Assembly: GCA_010405405.1 (NCBI GenBank)
Contig: MU004231.1
Span: 4,431,204 to 4,495,203 of the forward strand
Reading direction: 5' to 3'
Source: Microthyrium microscopicum
Lineage: Eukaryota; Ascomycota; Dothideomycetes; Microthyriales; Microthyriaceae
Length of the DNA stretch: 64,000 bases
The notes under the pieces were generated by a model. That model made no database searches, was not told the DNA's origin, and saw nothing but the letters and a program-made list of their open reading frames with translations. Below, piece after piece: positions 23,668 through 64,000 of the stretch. A program made the translations under genes and the position numbers. Within the stretch, counting starts at the first letter, position 1; each line of letters begins with the position of its first letter.

Positions 23668-24078
23668 GTCTTCCGAGTTATTCTTGTCAGGTTAATCGTA
23701 TCTGGGGTTTTGGGAGAATATGCTGCTAAGAACTTGAGATAGCTGGTTTCGTAGAAGTTTTGGTGTTGTATGGTAAACAATCAAGATGAAAGCTCCAAAA
23801 CACCATGCCTTTCTGGGCTAGCTCGGGTTGATGGGCTGACGCGCGGCTAATCCTTGCGCCCTGACCCCGTAAGTAAGCGCCATCCACAAGGCCGAGTTTA
23901 CATCTTGTTCCAGTAGAAGGAATAAGGGGGATTTGATTCACACCAACCTCCGCCTCTTACATCTTCGCTGTTGAACGGTATACTGTCGCTGCATAAATAC
24001 AACCCTCTTCCTTATCCAGAATAAAGAGAGCCTGATCTCGATGTCGTATTGCAAGCGAACGTCGTAACCTCTGCCGCA
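23668..24078. promoter_or_regulatory. Divergent promoter region between rlc1-like and AFI1/mesA-like genes
   Basis: Only 411 bases separate the two divergent start codons, so both promoters must lie here. No canonical TATA box or named binding site is clear. Confidence 0.6.
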
Positions 24079-26592
24079 ATGGCTGCCCCCGTGGCCCCGC
24101 AATTATATCGCCAGGCATCTTCAGCCTCCAATGGATCTGGCCTGCGAACGAATGGACAGAGAAACTTTGGAGATCAGGATGGCTCGCCCCAAGCTCTATC
24201 ACAAAGAGGTTCCGCCCGGTCATCAATCGTGACTCCCGCGCCCTACGATGGCCCGCACCTTCGATCGCAATACCCTGCCAACTCGACAGAGAATCATGTC
24301 GAGTATATCCTAGTGGCATCTTTCGATATCGACCGTGGTTCGATCATGGAGCATCAATACCCTGGGCCCATTTCTGGAGATGAGAATATGCTAGCAGAGC
24401 TCATGTTGCCAGATCAGGCACATGTAAGAAGTATGGACTGGACTATCTTCTTCCTTCACAAGGATACGACCGCTGAGGAGGAAGCAAGAGAGGAAAGAAA
24501 ACGCGTTAGAAAGATTAAGAAACGGCGGCGTGAGTTGGAAAAGGCTGGCGAGCCAATACCCGACGACGAAGATCTTGACCTCGAAGGTCTGGATCTTGGA
24601 GACGATGATGATGAAGATATGTACTCGGAGTCTACTGCAGATGATTCCGAAGGGCCTCCATTGATATATGTTCTCAACCTTGTGAATACAAAGCAAGATC
24701 AAACGGTGAAGAGGCGAGTTCTCATCATCATATCACAATCTTCGCTAACGAGAACAGAGGTGCTATTGTCAAAGCGATGGCAATATGTACGAGGCATTCA
24801 TTCCTCCACATATACAAAGTAAGAATGACTATCAAAATGTGTTTTCTCTCACTAATCAGATCAGCCGTTATTACTTCTTGCGCTTGAAGAATATTTCAGA
24901 GCGCCGGTGGTAGAAACATTAGCATCTCTATACAACGCCGTCAACTCCATGGACTTGTCGCTAATGCCTCGACTTTCAAGCCTTGAAAGAAACATATTAC
25001 AGACGAGCGATGTCAAAGACATGTTTGTAGAGAAATTCTCTGTTATGATTCAGCAAAAGATGGCAGATGATGAGCATCGACTCTCGCAGAACTCTGTGCC
25101 CTCGTCCACGGATTCACCAACTCCTAAAGGCAAATATCAACCACCAAGAGATACACACGAATTTGAGTCTCGTGTGCAGTATAATGGGGTGCCGGTACCT
25201 ATCAAAGTGCCAGTCGCTATTACCCCTGAAACTGTTGGCGACTTTTCTCTAGTAAAGCTTATATCGACATTTGCAACACCACACGCTTCTTCTCCACAAC
25301 CATTTACTATTCATCCTCACTTGACCACATCAGGGCCATATACTCATCCAATAATTGTTTTGATCAATGCCCTTCTCACCCAGAAGCGTATCATATTTCT
25401 TGGTCACAATCAGCCCTCCGGAAGCGTTGCTGAAGCGGTACTAGCAGCTTGTGCTCTAGCGTCGGGTGGTATATTAAAGGGGTTTACACGACATGCGTTC
25501 CCTTACACAGATCTCACTAAAATCGATGATCTTCTCAAAGTTCCAGGCTTTATTGCTGGTGTCACAAATCCAGCATTTGCCCACAAACCCGAATGGTGGG
25601 ATGTGCTCTGCGATTTGCCGACTGGCCGGATGAAAATCAGTCCCAAAATTGAAGGCGCACCTGTCACAGAAGGATTACTGTTCTTCCAACAAAATGGACA
25701 CGGAGCACATATTGCAAAAGAACATTCGGTACTGAACGGAGATAGCAAAAGCCATCCATCGAATGATCCTACTGGTGACACTGTTTTCATGGATTCAGTA
25801 ATGAACTCCATTTCAAATCGTCATGGAGAACCGGCTGTGCGAAACAAGTTTAGAGCTTGGGTCCATCGTTTTACACTAATCGCGGCCGCTTTTGAGGAAG
25901 TCGTTTATGGTGCCTCTGCTCTCAATATCGGTGCTGCGGAAACAGATGAAGACATGTACAACTACGGGGTTGGTGGTCACGGCCTGGTCTGGGCAGACGA
26001 ACCCACACGGATGCGAGAGATACAGGCGAATGTCGGAAGAGTTGAAGGTTGGCGCCAAACTCGCTCATATTACTCTCTCATTCGCGATCTGGCTAGAACG
26101 TGGGAAAAAGGAGAATGTGTTAGGGGAATCGACGTGGGCTATCAGGTCGACCGCCTCAGAACATTGCGCGTTGGTGATGCCGGCGCTGCGGATATCTACA
26201 TGGCTTTAGCCAGAGCCGTGGAACGTGCAGGCGTTGATTTTGACGACCCAGATTATGAAAACCCCCTGGACCCTGACGACCCGGATAGTGAAGATTGGCA
26301 ACTAGACCCGGAAACAGAGGTGAGGCTACTCAAACGGGAGAAGGCTCGTCATGAAGTCATCAATCAATTGCTCTGTGTCATGCCTGAGAATAACGGTGGC
26401 TTGTTCTATATAGGGCTGGGCCTGTTCCACAAAGACGTGGCAGTCAGACAGGCAATTGTTGGCCTCCTTGAGCGGATCAATGCCCATGAAGCCGGTAGGC
26501 ATTTCTGGGCCCAACTTGGAAGATTTGCGAAATTGGCTTTCTTTCGAGTTAAACGCGACGGCGAAAATCCTCAGAATAGAGCATCTGGTTGA
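24079..26592 (+). CDS. Afi1/MesA-type cell-polarity protein (Arf3-interacting, SPA domain)
   Basis: Exons 24079-24713, 24758-24818 and 24865-26592 join to 807 aa. The first intron is GC-AG: the donor reads AG|GCGAGT and the in-frame junction is [17 protein letters not shown]. After a polar N-terminus the docking domain begins at [25 protein letters not shown], as in Afi1 and DENN-type proteins; a charged insert ([20 protein letters not shown], then an Asp/Glu run) interrupts it. The SPA (stabilisation of polarity axis) part includes [18 protein letters not shown]-like and [27 protein letters not shown] blocks. Yeast Afi1 binds Arf3 and keeps the polarity axis; Aspergillus MesA stabilises hyphal tip polarity through the formin. 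The rlc1-like gene diverges from its 5' side. Confidence 0.87.
24714..24757 (+). other. GC-AG intron
   Basis: 44-nt intron with donor AG|GCGAGT, branch-like GCTAACG and acceptor CAG. No GT donor nearby preserves the frame, so this is a non-canonical but legitimate GC-AG intron. Confidence 0.8.
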
Positions 26593-27159: not shown

Positions 27160-28490
27160 TTACTTTGGGCAAGGTCCGTTACCATCGTGGTTCACGTTTG
27201 TGGGGCAAGCATCTGGGCACGTTAGAATTGGCGCCAGCTTCATCGCTTGAGCAGCGGCTGATGGTCCGCTGATATGCTATTTGATAATGCTTCATCACAA
27301 TAACAATTCAGAAGATAGCAGGCTATGCCAGCGCTGATGACAATCGTGTATAAGATGTCTTACCATGACGTTTTTGGACCATTGCCTTTGGTGGGGGATG
27401 GTCATCGCCATCTGGGCCATGAGCAGCTCTTTTCGCAATCATGACGCAAGGACCATTACCATCGCTGCAGGAGGATTAGTTAGAGTATGTCCCAACACTG
27501 ATCGCAATGGAAGTTGTCAAGCTGCCATGCTGCCAAGCTATTCTGTCTCTTTTGCAGAACAACAATGTAGCATGTCGCAAAAACCAGCGGGATGAGAACT
27601 TACTGTCTCTTCATGTTCGTGGGGCAAGCATCATGTCTCTTCATAATCTGGACGCAAGGCCTAGCACGTTGTCAGAATAAGATCATGAGAAGGAATGACA
27701 CAAGTTGACAAGCTTTGGGGAAACAAGGCAAATGTTACCAAATTGACACGCGCTGGGAAGACCAGGCGGCCAACTCGATACCATAACTTGCTGAAAAATC
27801 ATCCCAAAGTGTTTTGGTATGAGGAGACTTACCCATTACCGTCGTGACGCTTCATGTTTGTGGGGCATGCGTCGTGGCGCTTCATGACCTGGACGCAAGG
27901 CCTAGCACATCGATTAGCAAAGATTCGCCAATGTTCACTGATAAAGTATTGTTGGAAACCAACACGCAAGAAAATGATGTTTTTTTCCTCCCGGTACGAG
28001 ATCTCTCACATGTTGCAGTAGCCATAGAAGTTTCATGGGAGCCGCAACATGCTACAACATATATCAAAAGAAGATAAACTTACCCATTACCGTCGTGACG
28101 CTTCATGTTTGTCGGGCATGCATCGTGACGCCTTGTTAGGGGCACGATATGGGGGCAAGGCCTGGCGGATCCGTTAGCAAAGGTTTACCAATGTTTACGC
28201 AAAGTTCTTCGTTGACAAATGTTCACCGACAAGTGTTGTGTTGCTGCAAGTCAGAATGCAAAGAGAAGACTATTTCTTCCTCTCAGCAAGACTGTTGCGC
28301 TCATAGCGATCACAAAGTGTTGTGAAAGCCGCAAGATGCCATGGTATCGGGACAAGAAGTTCTTGTACGGGGAGACTCACCCATTGCCATCGTGACGCTT
28401 CATGTTTGTTGGGCATGCATCATGAGGAGCGGGAGCGGCGAAGCTGCCAGCAGCGAGAACGAAGAGGACGACTTTTTGGAAGGTGTACAT
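27160..28490 (-). CDS. Kex2-processed repeat secretory peptide precursor, six exons
   Basis: Exons (minus strand) are 28490-28381, 28161-28084, 27901-27833, 27660-27604, 27464-27364 and 27257-27160; all five introns are GT-AG and the joined frame is 170 aa ending in TAA. Residues 1-19 form a signal peptide (MYTFQKVVLFVLAAGSFAA), followed by APAP. The rest is repeats cut by Lys-Arg or Arg-Arg: HDACPTNM four times, each followed by a partner peptide: HDGNGPCPHIVPLT, HDGNGPCVQVM, HDGNGPCVQIM, HDGNGPCVMIA. Then come AAHGPDGDDHPPPKAMVQ and a final uncut unit, CPTNVNHDGNGPC. Introns 1-3 interrupt the same codon (the second Gly of GNG) in phase 2. Kex2-type proteases cut after KR in the late Golgi, as for alpha-factor and dikaritin RiPP precursors. 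No Tyr core and no nearby UstYa-like gene are seen, so it is not an obvious dikaritin. Function is unknown: pheromone-like signal, effector or antimicrobial are all possible. Confidence 0.82.
27465..28380 (-). repeat. Tandemly duplicated exon-intron units in the peptide precursor gene
   Basis: Distances between successive acceptors are about 260, 241 and 196 nt. Exons 2-4 share near-identical DNA (for example GACGCATGCCCCACAAACATG-like stretches). The introns also resemble one another: introns 1 and 2 share GAACATTGG- or AAACATTGG-type sequence and CTTTGCTAA before the acceptor, and introns 1 and 3 share a CACTTTG-GATG segment. Whole exon-plus-intron units have therefore been copied. Confidence 0.7.
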
Positions 28491-33414: not shown

Positions 33415-34148
33415 ATGGTTTCTTCAAAGATCTTTGCCGCTGCCGCGCTTGCGAGTATCGCGTCTGCCATTGACCATCAGGTCAAGGTTGGTTCAGGCGG
33501 AAACGTTTATTCTCCTTCAACCATTCCTGGAGTTGCTGTTGGCGATACTGTCAGTTTCCAATTCCAAGGCACCGTTCACAATGTCGTTCAATCGAGTTTC
33601 TCTTCTCCATGTACACCAATGGACAATGGATTCTCTGTTCCATTCCAGTCAAGTTCCGATACCTTCACTGTCAACGTGACAACCACCGACGCGATCTGGT
33701 TCTATTGTTCATACCAAAACCACTGCAACTTGGGTATGGTAGGAGTTATCAATCCGGGGTAAGCACCATCCGAACTATTCATTTCCATTTAGACGCGTCA
33801 TTGACATGATATTAGAACTGGACAAACTCAAGGAGCCTTTGCCTCTGCTGCAAAGGGCGCGACAGTCTCTCAACCAAAGAGTAACAGCGCGGTTGGTGGC
33901 GTTCTTGGTAGCGGTTAGTGCATCTTCTCCAGAAACTTTAAAAAGTATCCACTAAAAATATCACAGGGTCTTCTTCCGGAGCAACAACCTCTTCCGCATC
34001 AGGTTCATCTGCTTCATCCTCAGCCTCTTCATCCATGTCAGCTTCAATGGGAATGGCAAGCTCAACAAGCTCTGGATCTGGTGCTATCTCTACCGCCATG
34101 CCAGCAGCACTCGCGATGGTTGCTGGTCTTGCTGCTGCAGTGCTATAA
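33415..34148 (+). CDS. GPI-anchored cupredoxin (extracellular serine-rich protein)
   Basis: Exons 33415-33758, 33816-33913 and 33967-34148 give 207 aa. Residues 1-18 are a signal peptide (MVSSKIFAAAALASIASA). A single cupredoxin-like domain follows: DHQVKVGSGGNVYSPSTI, VGDTVSFQFQGTVHNVVQSSF, CTPMDNGF, and IWFYCSYQNHCNLGMVGVINPG. The His in VHNV, the Cys in WFYC and the His in NHC form the classic type-1 copper ligand set, with Met in GMV as possible axial ligand. The C-terminal third is a Ser/Ala/Gly linker ending in a hydrophobic helix (AALAMVAGLAAAVL), the pattern of a GPI-anchor signal. Such proteins sit on the fungal wall or membrane; many are induced during host contact or development, but their function is mostly unknown. 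Confidence 0.9.
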
Positions 34149-34729
34149 GAGTTGGAAAGAATACAAACTACAATACTAGCTCGACATGATCCGATGCCAC
34201 AATAGTTGTAGAATTATCGAGTATGAGCGCTTTGGTTACAAATTATAATTTGCGTAGTATTCTCCAATCTCTCGATACATTCTCTCCGCTGTCGGTGATT
34301 GAAATGAACAAAGAAGACATTGGACAAATCCGAGTGATCCGCTGGTCGGAGGTATTTTGGTATACAGACAGATGGTAAGGCCGTGCAAGGAGAAAACTAA
34401 CCAGGTTTTTTTATGCAAGTCATTCAAGTCGTTGCAGGTGCACGCAGTCAGTTTGGTAGGCCGGCCGTCGGAGGCAATGGGAATAGGAATTGATGTTGTC
34501 TGATTGGTTGTTGAGAAAGACCGAAATCGGGGACAAATGCGATCTCGGAGGGGTCAAGATACATTATTTTTGTTGTCAGCCAACATTCAAGTCAACCTTA
34601 AACATCGCCGCTTCGCCCTCATCTATTGAGCTTTTATCAAAGCTGCGGATAACTTTGTCCACAATATATAAGTTCCGCACTGGGAGTCTGCCTTCAACGC
34701 AGTTCATTACATCCTTTTGAGCATTCATC
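34149..34729. other. Intergenic region and LEU1 promoter
   Basis: Contains a GC-rich CCGGCCGTCGG stretch at 34461-34471, loosely like the CCGG-NN-CCGG site of Leu3, the branched-chain regulator, but not an exact match. TATATAA lies at 34665-34671. Confidence 0.45.
34665..34671 (+). promoter_or_regulatory. TATA box of the isopropylmalate isomerase gene
   Basis: TATATAA 65 bases before the ATG at 34730. Confidence 0.6.
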
Positions 34730-37166
34730 ATGCCTGGCATCATCAACAAGCCCCAGACTCTCTATGAGAAGGTCTTCAATGACCATATCGTTGACGAGAG
34801 AGACGATGGCACAATCCTCCTTTATATTGGTAAGCCTTTTCTCATCTTCAATGGCAATGGAACTGATCCTATACAGACAGACATCTTGTGCACGAAGTCA
34901 CGTCGCCACAAGCTTTCGAAGGACTCAAAAATGCGGGGCGCAGAGTTCGAAGACCAGATTGCACCCTAGCTACTGTCGACCACGTATGTTCCTTATGTCC
35001 TTGTCTGTTGAGGTTTTGCTAACGAAGGCTGATTAGAACATCCCTACTTCCTCCCGAAAATCCTACAAGAGTGTCGAAACCTTTGTCGAAGAAGACGATT
35101 CCCGCACTCAATGCGTTACCCTCGAACAGAATGTCAAAGACTTTGGTCTTGTATACTTTGGCCTCGATGACAAGCGACAAGGAATTGTGCATATCATTGG
35201 ACCTGAGCAAGGCTTCACACTACCGGGCACAACTCTAGTCTGCGGCGACAGTCACACATCTACACATGGCGCCTTTGGTGCTCTTGCTTTTGGAATTGGT
35301 ACTTCAGAAGTTGAACATGTTTTGGCCACACAAACACTCATCACACGGCGGAGCAAGAACATGAGAGTGCAGGTCGAAGGTGAACTTGCACCAGGTGTCT
35401 CTAGCAAAGATGTCGTTCTTCATATCATTGGCTTGACTGGTACTGCTGGTGGTACTGGTGCTGTTATTGAATACTGCGGTTCCACCATCAGAGCTTTAAG
35501 CATGGAGGCACGCATGTCTATCTGCAACATGTCCATTGAGGGCGGTGCTCGAGCTGGAATGATTGCTCCCGATGAGACAACATTCGAGTACCTCAAAGGC
35601 AAGCCACTTGCTCCAAAGTACGGCAGCGAGGAGTGGAACAAAGCCGTTGCATATTGGTCAAGTCTGAAAACTGATGAGGGAGCCACCTTTGATATCGACT
35701 ATCAAATCAATGCCAAGGACATTGCACCTACAGTTTCTTGGGGCAACTCTCCACAAGATGTCGTCCCAATCACTGGAGTTGTTCCAGGCCCAGAAGATTT
35801 CACAGATCCCGTGAAGAAGGAGTCGTGCGTTCGCGCCCTTGAGTATATGGGTCTCAAAGCTGGAACTCCAATGCAAGAAATTCCCATCGACAAAGTCTTT
35901 ATTGGTTCCTGCACGAATGCTCGGATGGAAGATCTCCGCATTGCTGCAAAGGTCGTCGAAGGCAAACGTGTTGCTTCAAATGTCAAGCGTGCCATGATCG
36001 TTCCCGGATCTGGTCTTGTGCGAGACCAGGCGGAAGCTGAAGGCCTTGATAAGATCTTCACCGATGCCGGTTTTGAGTGGAGAGAAGCAGGATGTTCCAT
36101 GTGCCTTGGCATGAATCCAGACATCCTGGCTCCACAAGAACGATGCGCAAGCACGTCGAACCGGAATTTCGAGGGTCGCCAAGGTGCTGGTGGACGAACT
36201 CATTTGATGTCGCCCGCAATGGCAGCTGCAGCCGCAATTGTTGGCAACCTAGCAGACGTCCGAAAGGTAGCAAGTGGCCTTCAAATTAGCGCCCATAAGA
36301 GTGGCCCCAAGGTTCAGGTTGACGCTGCTCATGCTGCTGATATCAACTCCGACTCCGACCTTGACCGCATTATGGATGCGCCAGAAGATGCACAGACAAC
36401 ACGCACTGCGACTCCTGGAGCCACCTCATCACCCGCCGCTGCCAGTATTCCCAAATTCACACAACTCAAAGGCTATGCCGCCCCATTTCAGAACGGAAAC
36501 ATTGACACCGATGCCATCATTCCAAAACAATTCCTCAAAACCATCAAGCGCTCAGGTCTTGGTAGCGCTCTTTTCCATGCATGGCGTTACGACGCAAAAA
36601 CCAACAAGGAAACGCCCGAATTTGTTCTAAACAAGGAACCATATCGAAATTCCAAGCTCTTGGTATGCACTGGCCCTAATTTTGGCTGTGGAAGTTCACG
36701 TGAACATGCTCCATGGGCTCTACTTGACTTTGGCATCAAAGCTGTCGTTGCCAGCTCCTTTGGCGACATCTTCTACAACAACATGTCAAAGAATGGCATG
36801 GTCTCTGCTATTGTCACTGATAAGGCTCAACTCCAAGCTGTCTATGACGAGGCCGCAGCTGGAAAAGAGATTGAACTAGATCTCCCAGCACAAACAATCA
36901 AGTCGGCCGACGGTAAAGAGCTTGCCAAGTTTGACATTGAGCCTTTCCTCAAGGAATGCCTTGTCAATGGCTGGGATGATATCGGTCTTACCATGCGCAT
37001 GGATGACAAGATTGGCACCTATGAGAGTCGTCGTGCTCAGGCTTGGCCTTGGCTAGAGGGCAAAGCGTATCTAAAGCGCGATAAGAATGGTAATGTGAGA
37101 ATTGATGCGGCGCCGGTGCCAAAGACAAATCGGGGCGATGTGATTTCGGAACCGCTGGAGTGGTAG
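34730..37166 (+). CDS. LEU1: 3-isopropylmalate dehydratase (isomerase), fused LeuC-LeuD
   Basis: Exons 34730-34829, 34877-34983 and 35037-37166 give 778 aa, the usual length for the fungal single-chain enzyme. It converts 2-isopropylmalate to 3-isopropylmalate in leucine synthesis. The aconitase-like LeuC half shows [30 protein letters not shown] (restored by splicing), [44 protein letters not shown] and the CSMCLGMN pair; these three cysteines (GSC and CxxC) bind the [4Fe-4S] cluster. After a linker of about 80 residues rich in Ala, Thr and Ser, the LeuD swivel half shows [14 protein letters not shown] and [15 protein letters not shown]. No mitochondrial targeting signal is evident (starts MPGIINKPQ), in keeping with a cytosolic enzyme. 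Confidence 0.97.
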
Positions 37167-37572: not shown

Positions 37573-40500
37573 TTATTCCTCCGCGAATTTCTTAGGTCTA
37601 TATTCTTCAATGACACTCTTCGGCTGAACATACGTTCCTAGAGGCTGATATTCGTTTGCAAAACCAAAAGCTTTTGGGCCGCCAATTTCAACCGCACGTT
37701 CTGTGTCAACCCATCGTGGAGAGCAAGTGATACCAATGACCGTCACCCTGTACCCATATCTGAATTCCGGAACACCAAGAGCCTTTCCAGATCCATTGTC
37801 CAAAACAGCAATTAGATCTGGGACGGAAGCAATGATTTTCACCTCTCCATCGTCAGCTTCGTGTTCTGCAGTAATGATTTCGTTTTTGAATGGTAGTTTA
37901 AGCAGGCCACCATGGGCTACAGCGGCCATAAGAGGTCTTGAAGACTGGTCTTCATCTTCGATATGATCAAAAGATTTGATGTGGACTACGCCGTAGCTAT
38001 GACCTTGAGATAGCTCATTCTCCACTTGAATGATCTTGCCCCTGAAGAGTATCTTTGCTACTCCTGGTCCGCCAGCTTCTTCAATGATCGATTCGGCAAC
38101 AGATGAGATTGTGTTTGAGAAGTTACATCTCGCAATGCTACGACCTATCCGCCAAGCAAGTGAAAAAGTATTGAGAACTGCATATTTCGTCACATCTGCT
38201 TTGTTGGTTGGCCGAGTAGCTGCACCAACTGCAGAACCCATTTCTACACACGCTGCTCTTAGGATTGAATCAACGAGCTTGTCACTTGAAGAAGCTGTCA
38301 TGATAATCGTGCTCCCGTCACCAGAGTCGATTGCACAAGGAACGAGGCGATGACTCTCGTGAGCGGCAAGAGTAGTTTGCCATGCTGTTGGATATGCGCG
38401 ACCCATCCAATCACCATCAACTACTGGTACATTGAAGAAACGCGATGATCCAAGAAGTAAAGGCTCAAGACCATTTCCTCCACCAATCTCAATCGGCATT
38501 ACTGCTTGGAAATTGTCGTGACCAAGATATGCCATAAGTGCTTTCATGGCGGACACATTCTCTGTGGATTGTAGTCGTTCGACTCCAACTGCTGGTGAAC
38601 CCAGTCCACCTCCACTATAGATTATATCGTCCGTCCCCAGGGCCGATGGGTCAATTATGCGCATGATATAGCCTTCGCGAAGCATTCGAGTAAGTTGGAT
38701 TTTGACCGCTGCTGGACTCCCTCCTCCAGCGCAACCGAGCACATAGCAACCATCGGCCAAGTAAGCAACGTCGGTTACACTAACAACCCACTCGAGTCTG
38801 TCGTTTTGATAAACAACTTTCGGAGAGTAAGTGAGCGGATTTACTTCTTCGCTTTTGAGAATCGGGTCGTCTAGTCGTTGGGAGAATCTTTCAGGCTCAT
38901 CATCAATGTCATCGTCGTCTTGATCTTCCTCAAATTGAAATTGAGGGAAGCTCACACGAGTGTCAACGTCTCCAACAGCTCGGGCGATAATTCGTATCCG
39001 TTTTTCAATGTATGAGACCGGCATGGTCTCCACTTCGGTGATATGTATGCTGTTTTCTGAGGCGCCCGATTCTTTGGCTTTCTCGATAGCCAATCGTTTC
39101 GCATGACTGATGGCTTGCTGGACAGATTGCGTGCGGGTGTCTTGTAAGATATCCACGCAACCACTAATTTGAGATATCGCGGCACCAACAGCGTTGGCAA
39201 CGTCGTAGAAAATAGGGCGGGTTAGTGAAGCTGCACCTTGTAAGGACTCTGGAGCGATGATTGCACCACCGCCGACAAGGAGGACCGGTAAGGGATCCGG
39301 TGAAAGTTTCATAACATCCATTGCGGTCTCAAACATCTTTTTCATACTTTTTCGTGCTTCCTCAACCAAGAAGTGATCTAAATGAGAAACTTTGGATGAG
39401 TCACCAATATTGGCCATGCCAGCAGCAACAGCGATGTCAGTCGCAGTAATTGTGGTTCCACCGAATACCAATGCCTCACGTTCCAACTCTTTACCAACGG
39501 AATCTGGTCCTACTGTCACTTTCCCATCAACATGTCTGACGATACATCCTCCCCCGAGACCGATTGAGTGAAGGTGCGGTAGGCTATAATTGACCCGAAC
39601 TCCAGGTACTATCTCAACGTAGGCAAAAGCCTGACGAGGCACGTTGGAAGAAAGAAGCACGCCAACGTCAGTAGTAGTACCTCCTACGTCAATAACAATT
39701 GACTGTAAACCATCCAAGTTCTTTCCCGATAAATATGCTGCTCCGCGCATTGAATTTGTTGCACCAGAGCAAAAGGTGCGAATTGGAGTCTTTGCGGCGG
39801 AAGAAGCGCTCAGTCCTGTGCCATCATTTTGAGTAATAAAGATCGGGCATGTCAAGTACAATTGTCTCATAGCAAGATGAAATGCCTTGACTGTTTTGCG
39901 AGCGTACTTCAGGATCGCAGCATTCAAGATACTCGCGTTCTCCCGCTCCATGAAGCCAACATTGGCAACAGTGTGACTACAGACAACATCTGCACCAGGG
40001 ATTTCATTAAGCAATATGTCGCGAATACGATCTTCTTGCTTAAAGTCTTGGTCAATTGGGGAAAAGACTCCTGCAACCACAATGGTATTCAAGCCAAGCT
40101 CTTTGATCTTCGTGGCTTCTTGAACCACCTGCTCTTCAATGACAGATGCTTCTTCTCGCCCATCTATGTGTATTCCTCCATCGACATAGCCAACGTAACC
40201 TCTAATCAGTCTAGCTAGGTCTGCAGGCCACTCCGCGAACGGTGGAATTTCACGTAGGAAGGACTTGGAGACTCTGATGATTGCTACTGGTCTCAGCCGT
40301 CGGGCATCTCTCTCAATCACAGCGTTCATGAAATGAGTTGTGCCGATGGTCACGGTCGCAACTCGAGATGGGCTGATGCTGGCTGATTCGATAACATGTT
40401 TGACTGCGTCGGTGATACCTGTTGTCGCGTCTGGCGTGGTCGTTGTTTTCTGGTGTGCAAGGACGCCACGATGTGCAGCATTTCCCTTCAATGAGAGATC

Positions 40501-40587
40501 AACAGCCACTGCATCAGTATTCGTACCTGATTGCGTTAGTGAATATTGACATCTGGTAGCCTAACTGATAGACAAAGTAAATGGCAT
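37573..40587 (-). CDS. Hydantoinase/oxoprolinase-family protein with DUF917 domain; 5' end unresolved
   Basis: The long exon runs 40526-37573 and opens with TNTDAVAVDLSLKG, the start of the phosphate-binding N-terminal domain. Next come IGTTHFMNAV, an ASKH-type loop SIVIDVGGTTTDVGVLL, GLGGGCIVR and LLVGGGAIIAPE (hydantoinase A), then from about residue 590 a DUF917 half (GCAGGGSPAAVKIQL, DIIYSGGGLGSPAVGVERL, MPIEIGGGNGLEPLL). Such fusions are thought to open hydantoin-like or 5-oxoproline-like rings; substrate unknown. The first exon is doubtful. An ATG at 40587 can reach the exon through a weak GTTAGG donor (40565) but omits the usual GVxxGG motif. An upstream stretch does encode RVGAIEVG with a possible GTGGGG donor at 40595, but has no in-frame ATG. 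It may be miscalled or damaged. About 990 aa as drawn. Confidence 0.85.
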
Positions 40588-63906: not shown

Positions 63907-64000
63907 TTAGGGTTAGGGTTAGGGTTAGGGTTAGGGTTAGGGTTAGGGTTAGGGTTAGGGTTAGGGTTAGGGTTAGGGTTAGGGTTAGGGTTAGGGTTAG
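63907..64000. repeat. Telomere, (TTAGGG)n
   Basis: Fifteen perfect TTAGGG units plus a partial unit run to the end of the window, with no variant units. The G-rich strand reads 5'->3' outward, so this is the right end of a chromosome. Confidence 0.98.

Follow-up and report, generated by a model that had tools for sequence, protein, structure and literature searches.

The 64-kb window, by which we mean the whole stretch of DNA analysed here, is the end of contig C2 in a genome of 36.9 Mb and 20 contigs. On its minus strand, six exons join across five GT-AG introns to give an in-frame protein of 170 aa, a precursor with a secretory-looking leader and short peptide repeats (Table 1). The introns measure, in order, 219, 182, 172, 139 and 106 nt; their donors are GTGAGT, GTAAGT (three of five) and GTAAGA, and their acceptors CAG or TAG. 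Exon joining and splice sites thus bear out the coordinates, the six-exon in-frame splicing and the protein length proposed by an earlier, sequence-only reading of this DNA.

Exon 6 has two candidate acceptors, 11 nt apart. Use of the upstream one is predicted from the DNA to give a 147-aa protein ending in KRHADHQPLLKR, in which a KR-HADHQPLL-KR C-terminus replaces the last Cys pair; this may be a splice switch between products. Around 400 nt upstream of the precursor ATG there is a short ORF with a leader-like translation. The TTAGGG repeats that run to the end of the window mark a chromosome end; they lie some 35-36 kb from the precursor gene. Nine ORFs of at least 70 aa lie between the precursor gene and 33.3 kb, and the five of them that were scanned gave no Pfam match.

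Table 1. Positions in the window of the precursor gene, its exons and neighbouring features.
Feature	Positions	Strand	Content
Precursor gene	28490-27160	-	170 aa
Exon 1	28381..28490	-	110 nt; ATG, leader MYTFQKVVLFVLAAGSFA, APAP, unit 1 HDACPTNM-KR-HDGNG
Exon 2	28084..28161	-	78 nt; unit 1 end PCPHIVPLT-RR, unit 2 HDACPTNM-KR-HDGNG
Exon 3	27833..27901	-	69 nt; PCVQVM-KR, unit 3 HDACPTNM-KR-HDGNG
Exon 4	27604..27660	-	57 nt; PCVQIM-KR, unit 4 first half HDACPTNM-KR
Exon 5	27364..27464	-	101 nt; unit 4 second half HDGNGPCVMIA-KR, then AAHGPDGDDHPPP...VQ-KR
Exon 6	27160..27257	-	98 nt including stop TAA 27162-27160; degenerate unit PDACPTNVN-HDGNGPC-PK, no internal KR
Exon 6 candidate acceptors	27258..27271	-	CAG 27271-27269 and CAG 27260-27258
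36-codon ORF	29000-28890	-	leader-like MQDTYWGKSYHRLILLSYLVQLSSAVTAGPVVKASV
Afi1/SPA-domain gene	24025-26592		neighbour of the precursor gene
Cupredoxin-like secreted protein	33415-34150	+	exon 1 PF02298 and PF00127; Ser-rich tail by eye
Aconitase-family gene	35037-37166		two domains, by which it is probably a 3-isopropylmalate dehydratase
Long ORF	37573-40560	-	hydantoinase/oxoprolinase and S-Me-THD domains joined
TTAGGG repeats	63907-64000		to window end

Architecture and constraint of the precursor

The protein begins MYTFQKVVLFVLAAGSFA-APAP-(HDACPTNM KR HDGNGPCPHIVPLT RR)-(HDACPTNM KR HDGNGPCVQVM KR), continues with units 3 and 4, (HDACPTNM KR HDGNGPCVQIM KR)-(HDACPTNM KR HDGNGPCVMIA KR), and closes with AAHGPDGDDHPPPKAMVQ KR-HAAAQAMKLAPILTC-PDACPTNVNHDGNGPCPK. 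The leader is hydrophobic, judged by eye, and similar leaders are found in the three relatives described below. There are nine dibasic [KR]R sites against a mean of 1.31 in shuffled sequences, none of 5000 shuffles having as many, and eight of the nine are directly followed by His. All but one of the 11 Cys lie within HD motifs, the odd one being C152. The dibasic sites, the repeats and the eye-read leader support the earlier proposal of a Kex2-type repeat precursor, with two corrections of detail. The repeat peptides had been described as each bounded by KR or RR; the dibasic-bounded layout stands except at the first HDACPTNM, which comes after APAP. Similarly, the four HDACPTNM and four HDGNGPC peptides are there as four full pairs, but the degenerate fifth pair of exon 6 had gone unmentioned.

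In the definition of one survey, a KEP (KEX2-processed repeat protein) carries a signal peptide and three or more repeats, each 8 aa or longer, lying between Kex2 (dibasic) sites (PMC7329392). HDACPTNM (8 aa) occurs in three copies between dibasic sites, and the HDGNGPC fragment (11-14 aa) in four; by our own count, rather than by the survey pipeline, and with the leader judged by eye, the precursor counts as a KEP under this repeat rule.

Pairwise comparison of the four full repeats gives 40 synonymous and 19 non-synonymous codon differences; counted by sites, these come to 45.2 differences over 82.0 synonymous sites and 35.8 over 332.0 non-synonymous ones, a pN/pS of 0.20, for an alignment of 23 codons per repeat with three codons dropped from the longer first repeat and the fifth unit outside the totals. 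Repeats 2-4, which align without gaps, give 0.15. Neutral simulation with equal numbers of changes produced a mean of 69.2 non-synonymous changes (sd 5.9), and in none of 2000 runs was the number as low as that observed. Given the pN/pS and these simulations, we conclude that the exons are coding and under constraint, and reject the alternative of a non-coding repeat. Over the 17-residue HDACPTNM-KR-HDGNGPC stretch the codon differences are 31 synonymous against 0 non-synonymous (nominal P 1.6e-8), figures that overstate the constraint because the stretch was chosen for its residue identity, so that the full-repeat value is the fair one. Replacements of amino acids fall in the tails (PHIVPLT, VQVM, VQIM and VMIA). 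Comparison of the fifth unit with each of the other four, over 16 codons, shows 3-5 differences that are synonymous and 3 that are not. Introns between the repeat copies have a similarity of 0.40-0.57, against shuffled means of 0.39-0.50, and 56 nt that run from the 3' end of intron 1 or 2 into the next exon still align at 75%. Low intron similarity with such a remnant is what duplication of whole exon-intron units would leave, had only the exons been kept under constraint.

Relatives and the pairing of cysteines

Searching a set of 5.8 billion proteins with the single sequence gave one match at E<=10, P0001 (210 aa; E 0.014, the alignment covering 99% of the query), which aligns with the precursor at E 7e-11 in pairwise BLASTP. 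A two-sequence profile of the precursor and an edited P0001 then matched P0002 (E 1.5e-13) and P0003 (E 1.5e-4), and a third protein search with all four sequences, in which the 8000 best candidates were scored, returned only these members again. Three relatives is a lower bound, because intron-split fungal genes are expected to be poorly covered in the protein set. All three are single JGI proteins, two from contigs of less than 1 kb. Judged by the architecture they share with it, the precursor is not an orphan. Pattern searches for similar proteins in viral and prokaryotic contigs gave 74 and 35 matches, none of which was confirmed. Within the precursor's own genome, a paralogue search with the precursor protein found six matches, all of them its own exons, and one with P0002 found two precursor exons and a match at E 1.4; a search with P0003 found nothing and missed the precursor gene itself, and is thus a weak one.

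All four proteins have two X-P dipeptides after the leader: APAP in the precursor, LPRP in P0001 and P0002, and LPKP in P0003. P0001 ends in KR-HDACPGIVNHDGDGPC. The units of P0002 are HDGCATLT-KR-HDGDGPC and a last one, KR-HDNCSHVVNHDGESGC, which has drifted yet keeps both Cys; those of P0003 are HDACLY-RR-HDGDGPC and HDACLLKT-KR-HDGDGPC, their HDxC halves preceded by AR or VR rather than by a dibasic site. A KR-HGPD in P0001 and P0002 matches AAHGPDGDD of precursor exon 5, and HGPDGDD itself also occurs in P0001. With two units each, the relatives fall short of the three tandem repeats of the KEP rule. A structural model of P0002 has a leader helix (residues 4-18) as its sole element (mean pLDDT 51.8, pTM 0.18); this would fit a processed precursor, and, the alignment being as shallow as three sequences, proves little.

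Across the precursor and its relatives, each of 11 HDxC-type motifs (one reads PDAC) has an HDGx[GS][PG]C partner after it. The Cys of the four proteins lie inside these paired motifs in 22 of 23 cases (12/12 in the relatives, 10/11 in the precursor), whereas 7 of the 11 pairs have a dibasic site between their halves: 4/5 in the precursor, 0/2 in P0001, 1/2 in P0002 and 2/2 in P0003. In the first P0001 pair 16 residues lie between the halves, presumably a read-through intron. Ahead of HDxC there is a dibasic site in 5/11 cases, an X-P dipeptide in 3/11 and neither in 3/11 (the last precursor unit and both P0003 units). On these sequences, HDxC and HDGx[GS][PG]C are best taken as the two halves of a single two-Cys unit. 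It is because pairing is complete, nearly all Cys fall in the motifs and the dibasic site is present in only part of the pairs that the unit is conserved as a Cys pair, with an optional cut inside it. The earlier description of two independent one-Cys cores without kin is, as it stands, not supported by the three relatives and this pattern. A disulfide bond probably joins the two halves ahead of any Kex2 cut between them.

Candidate products

The reading that we favour, although tentatively, is that this Kex2-processed secreted repeat protein gives rise to about four two-chain, disulfide-linked two-Cys peptides that act outside the cell. Signal peptidase would take off the leader, and a Ste13-type dipeptidyl peptidase would trim AP-AP after it. 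In the ER, both Cys of each HDACPTNM-KR-HDGNGPC unit would join as a disulfide, and only thereafter, in the Golgi, would Kex2 and Kex1 cut at and trim the KR and RR sites. The product would be about four copies of HDACPTNM-S-S-HDGNGPC, each carrying a short tail that varies and measuring 19-22 residues as a whole, both chains beginning His-Asp. The middle KR would then mark a cut that is optional and depends on lineage, made in a single-chain unit with two Cys, the uncut form of which would persist at the precursor C-terminus and in the relatives. The genome encodes DPPIV/Ste13-type proteins and a Kex2-type P domain (C1:1728256, in an open frame of 891 aa). The precursor of yeast killer toxin K1, to which we claim no sequence relation, is not known to be a repeat precursor. 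The likeness lies in the order of events, since in the processing described for K1 a disulfide forms in the ER before Kex2/Kex1 act, and a two-chain product results (PMC7021474).

Alternatively, the chains, with one Cys each, might remain unlinked or pair with copies of themselves. One version of this idea, which we regard as unlikely but as the closest competitor, is that Kex2 frees two separate linear peptides with one free Cys each, or later homodimers, which serve as independent signals. The KR between the halves in four of five precursor pairs would suit such an arrangement, and 79 of the 1193 KEPs of one survey carry two or three different motifs (PMC6339444). However, independent signals do not explain why the halves are paired in 11/11 cases, including 4/11 with no dibasic site between them, or why the drifted P0002 unit retains both Cys.

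Somewhat less likely is a role in metal handling, in which copper or another soft metal would be bound extracellularly by the peptides, whose N-terminal part holds His, Asp and Cys, and by the Met-rich peptides of the relatives. Met is enriched in P0001 (13/133, p 8.6e-6), P0002 (13/132, p 7.9e-6) and P0003 (15/198, p 3.9e-5), the p values being nominal against a background of 2.2% that is assumed, not measured. MxMxxM/MxxMxM motifs number 4 in P0001 (shuffled mean 0.17, p <0.0005), 1 in P0002 (0.17, p 0.147) and 2 in P0003 (0.13, p 0.013), and P0002 contains HHMDM; motifs of both kinds, MxMxxM and HH(M), are binding sites for Cu(I)/Ag(I) in a peptide of human Ctr1 (PMC9117721). The precursor itself is rich in His (13/150, p 1.1e-4 against an assumed 2.5%) and lies 4.9 kb from a cupredoxin-like gene. 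Against this, it has no MxMxxM-type motif, its Met excess is modest (9/150, p 0.006), none of the four proteins shows a surplus of [HM]x[HM], Met/Pro-rich stretches may serve merely as spacers, and one cupredoxin neighbour may be chance. A search of the genome with PF00127 gave no match and missed the cupredoxin-like gene of the window too, and so offers no basis for a cupredoxin count. A link between this neighbour and the Met-rich relatives is possible but unproven. Copper binding is therefore a reasonable lead for the family, though for the precursor gene no more than an indirect one. A bolder combination, which we consider doubtful, is a new fungal peptide family resembling miniature insulins (two-chain, disulfide-linked, with His-Asp starts) that would capture or sense extracellular copper with its Met/His-rich partner peptides.

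Marginally less probable still is an alpha-type mating pheromone precursor. The KEP layout and the X-P dipeptides after the leader recall this class, in which Kex2 sites and, in many cases, two Cys per unit are likewise found; the genome has a Ste2-type receptor, and scans for two known-core DNA patterns gave no convincing pheromone gene among the matches examined. These scans returned 20 matches to a two-Cys pheromone pattern (12 for the reversed control) and one to PYGxPxG (control 0); none of the five stretches that were translated (6 of the 21 matches) held a KR-flanked repeat gene, the remaining 15 being seen as matched letters. The patterns are narrow, however, and an ordinary pheromone gene may be missed, since a GQ core does not cover WCYRIGEPCW. 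Moreover, the Cys here lie in separate Kex2 fragments, no X-P or X-A directly follows the sites preceding HD, and the precursor has neither a WCxxGxxCW-like nor a PYGxPxG core, nor any core of the kinds described in the relevant parts of PMC3068285 and PMC6339444. The h-type pheromone precursor HPP1 of Hypocrea jecorina likewise combines one-Cys repeats with Kex2 sites, and is described as having three (LI)GC(TS)VM copies and a C-terminal CAAX (PMC3068285); our precursor differs from that description in its secretory-looking leader and in its C-terminus, NGPCPK, which is no h-type CAAX.

A dikaritin/ustiloxin-type RiPP precursor cyclised by UstYa enzymes is very unlikely, because no UstYa match lies in the window and the cores are free of Tyr. 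Ustiloxin and phomopsin precursors are also secreted and carry KR-bounded repeats, and UstYa genes exist in this genome (22 exon-level matches). None of the 22 falls within the window, as the sequence-only reading had it, and on the same contig they occur only at 0.67 Mb, about 3.8 Mb away; the search proceeded exon by exon and can miss genes. Known dikaritin cores contain Tyr or Phe; HDACPTNM and HDGNGPCVQVM hold neither, the lack of Tyr having been seen earlier as well, and none of eight scanned neighbouring ORFs is a recognisable tailoring gene. Some UstYa matches are clustered (e.g. C8:231785-233706 and C9:1831997-1834222), probably marking dikaritin-type clusters elsewhere. It is important to note that the absence of UstYa is not rare among KEPs generally, because DUF3328 genes lie near just 22% of KEP genes in the figures of one survey (PMC7329392).

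Least probable of all is a folded Cys-rich secreted protein or a non-coding repeat: the precursor does exceed the cut-off for PF25314 (nematode TNF-receptor-like; 35.5 bits against 27), but the best of three matching stretches covers 18 residues, half of the 34-position model, none of the three relatives matches at E<=1, so that we judge the match spurious, P0002 models without a fold, and the pN/pS speaks against the non-coding half. Matches to PDB sequences (cryptophyte phycoerythrin alpha, E 0.39-0.47) were taken as chance.

Place among fungal repeat precursors

Among the core motif strings sought in the literature, only HDACP was found, in papers that by title concern human or mouse cells or computing methods. 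By topic no such core came up, nor does one appear in the consulted parts of the KEP surveys (PMC6339444, PMC7329392), whose supplements may list the type unnamed. No credible described family emerged from the motif and topic literature, Pfam or PDB sequences; the earlier statement that no such family is described holds for these sources.

Our conclusion is that the precursor is real, coding and conserved, and that it brings a new core to a type of precursor already known. It shares with KEPs, as the surveys characterise them, a secretory-looking leader and at least three repeats of at least 8 aa bounded by KR or RR, and it departs from those so characterised in alternating two one-Cys motifs in strict pairs (PMC6339444, PMC7329392). 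By their stated inclusion rules, the two surveys admit a protein only if it is annotated and has at least three repeats. Annotation easily goes wrong for a gene whose exons measure 57-110 nt, and two-unit relatives fail the three-repeat rule, so that between 'KEP' and 'small secreted protein' such a family can go unnoticed. Should the two-chain reading be true, disulfide-linked heterodimers would join the expected products of KEPs, with exact masses to seek. Through the Met-rich relatives, a connection of Kex2 peptides with copper can be tested directly.
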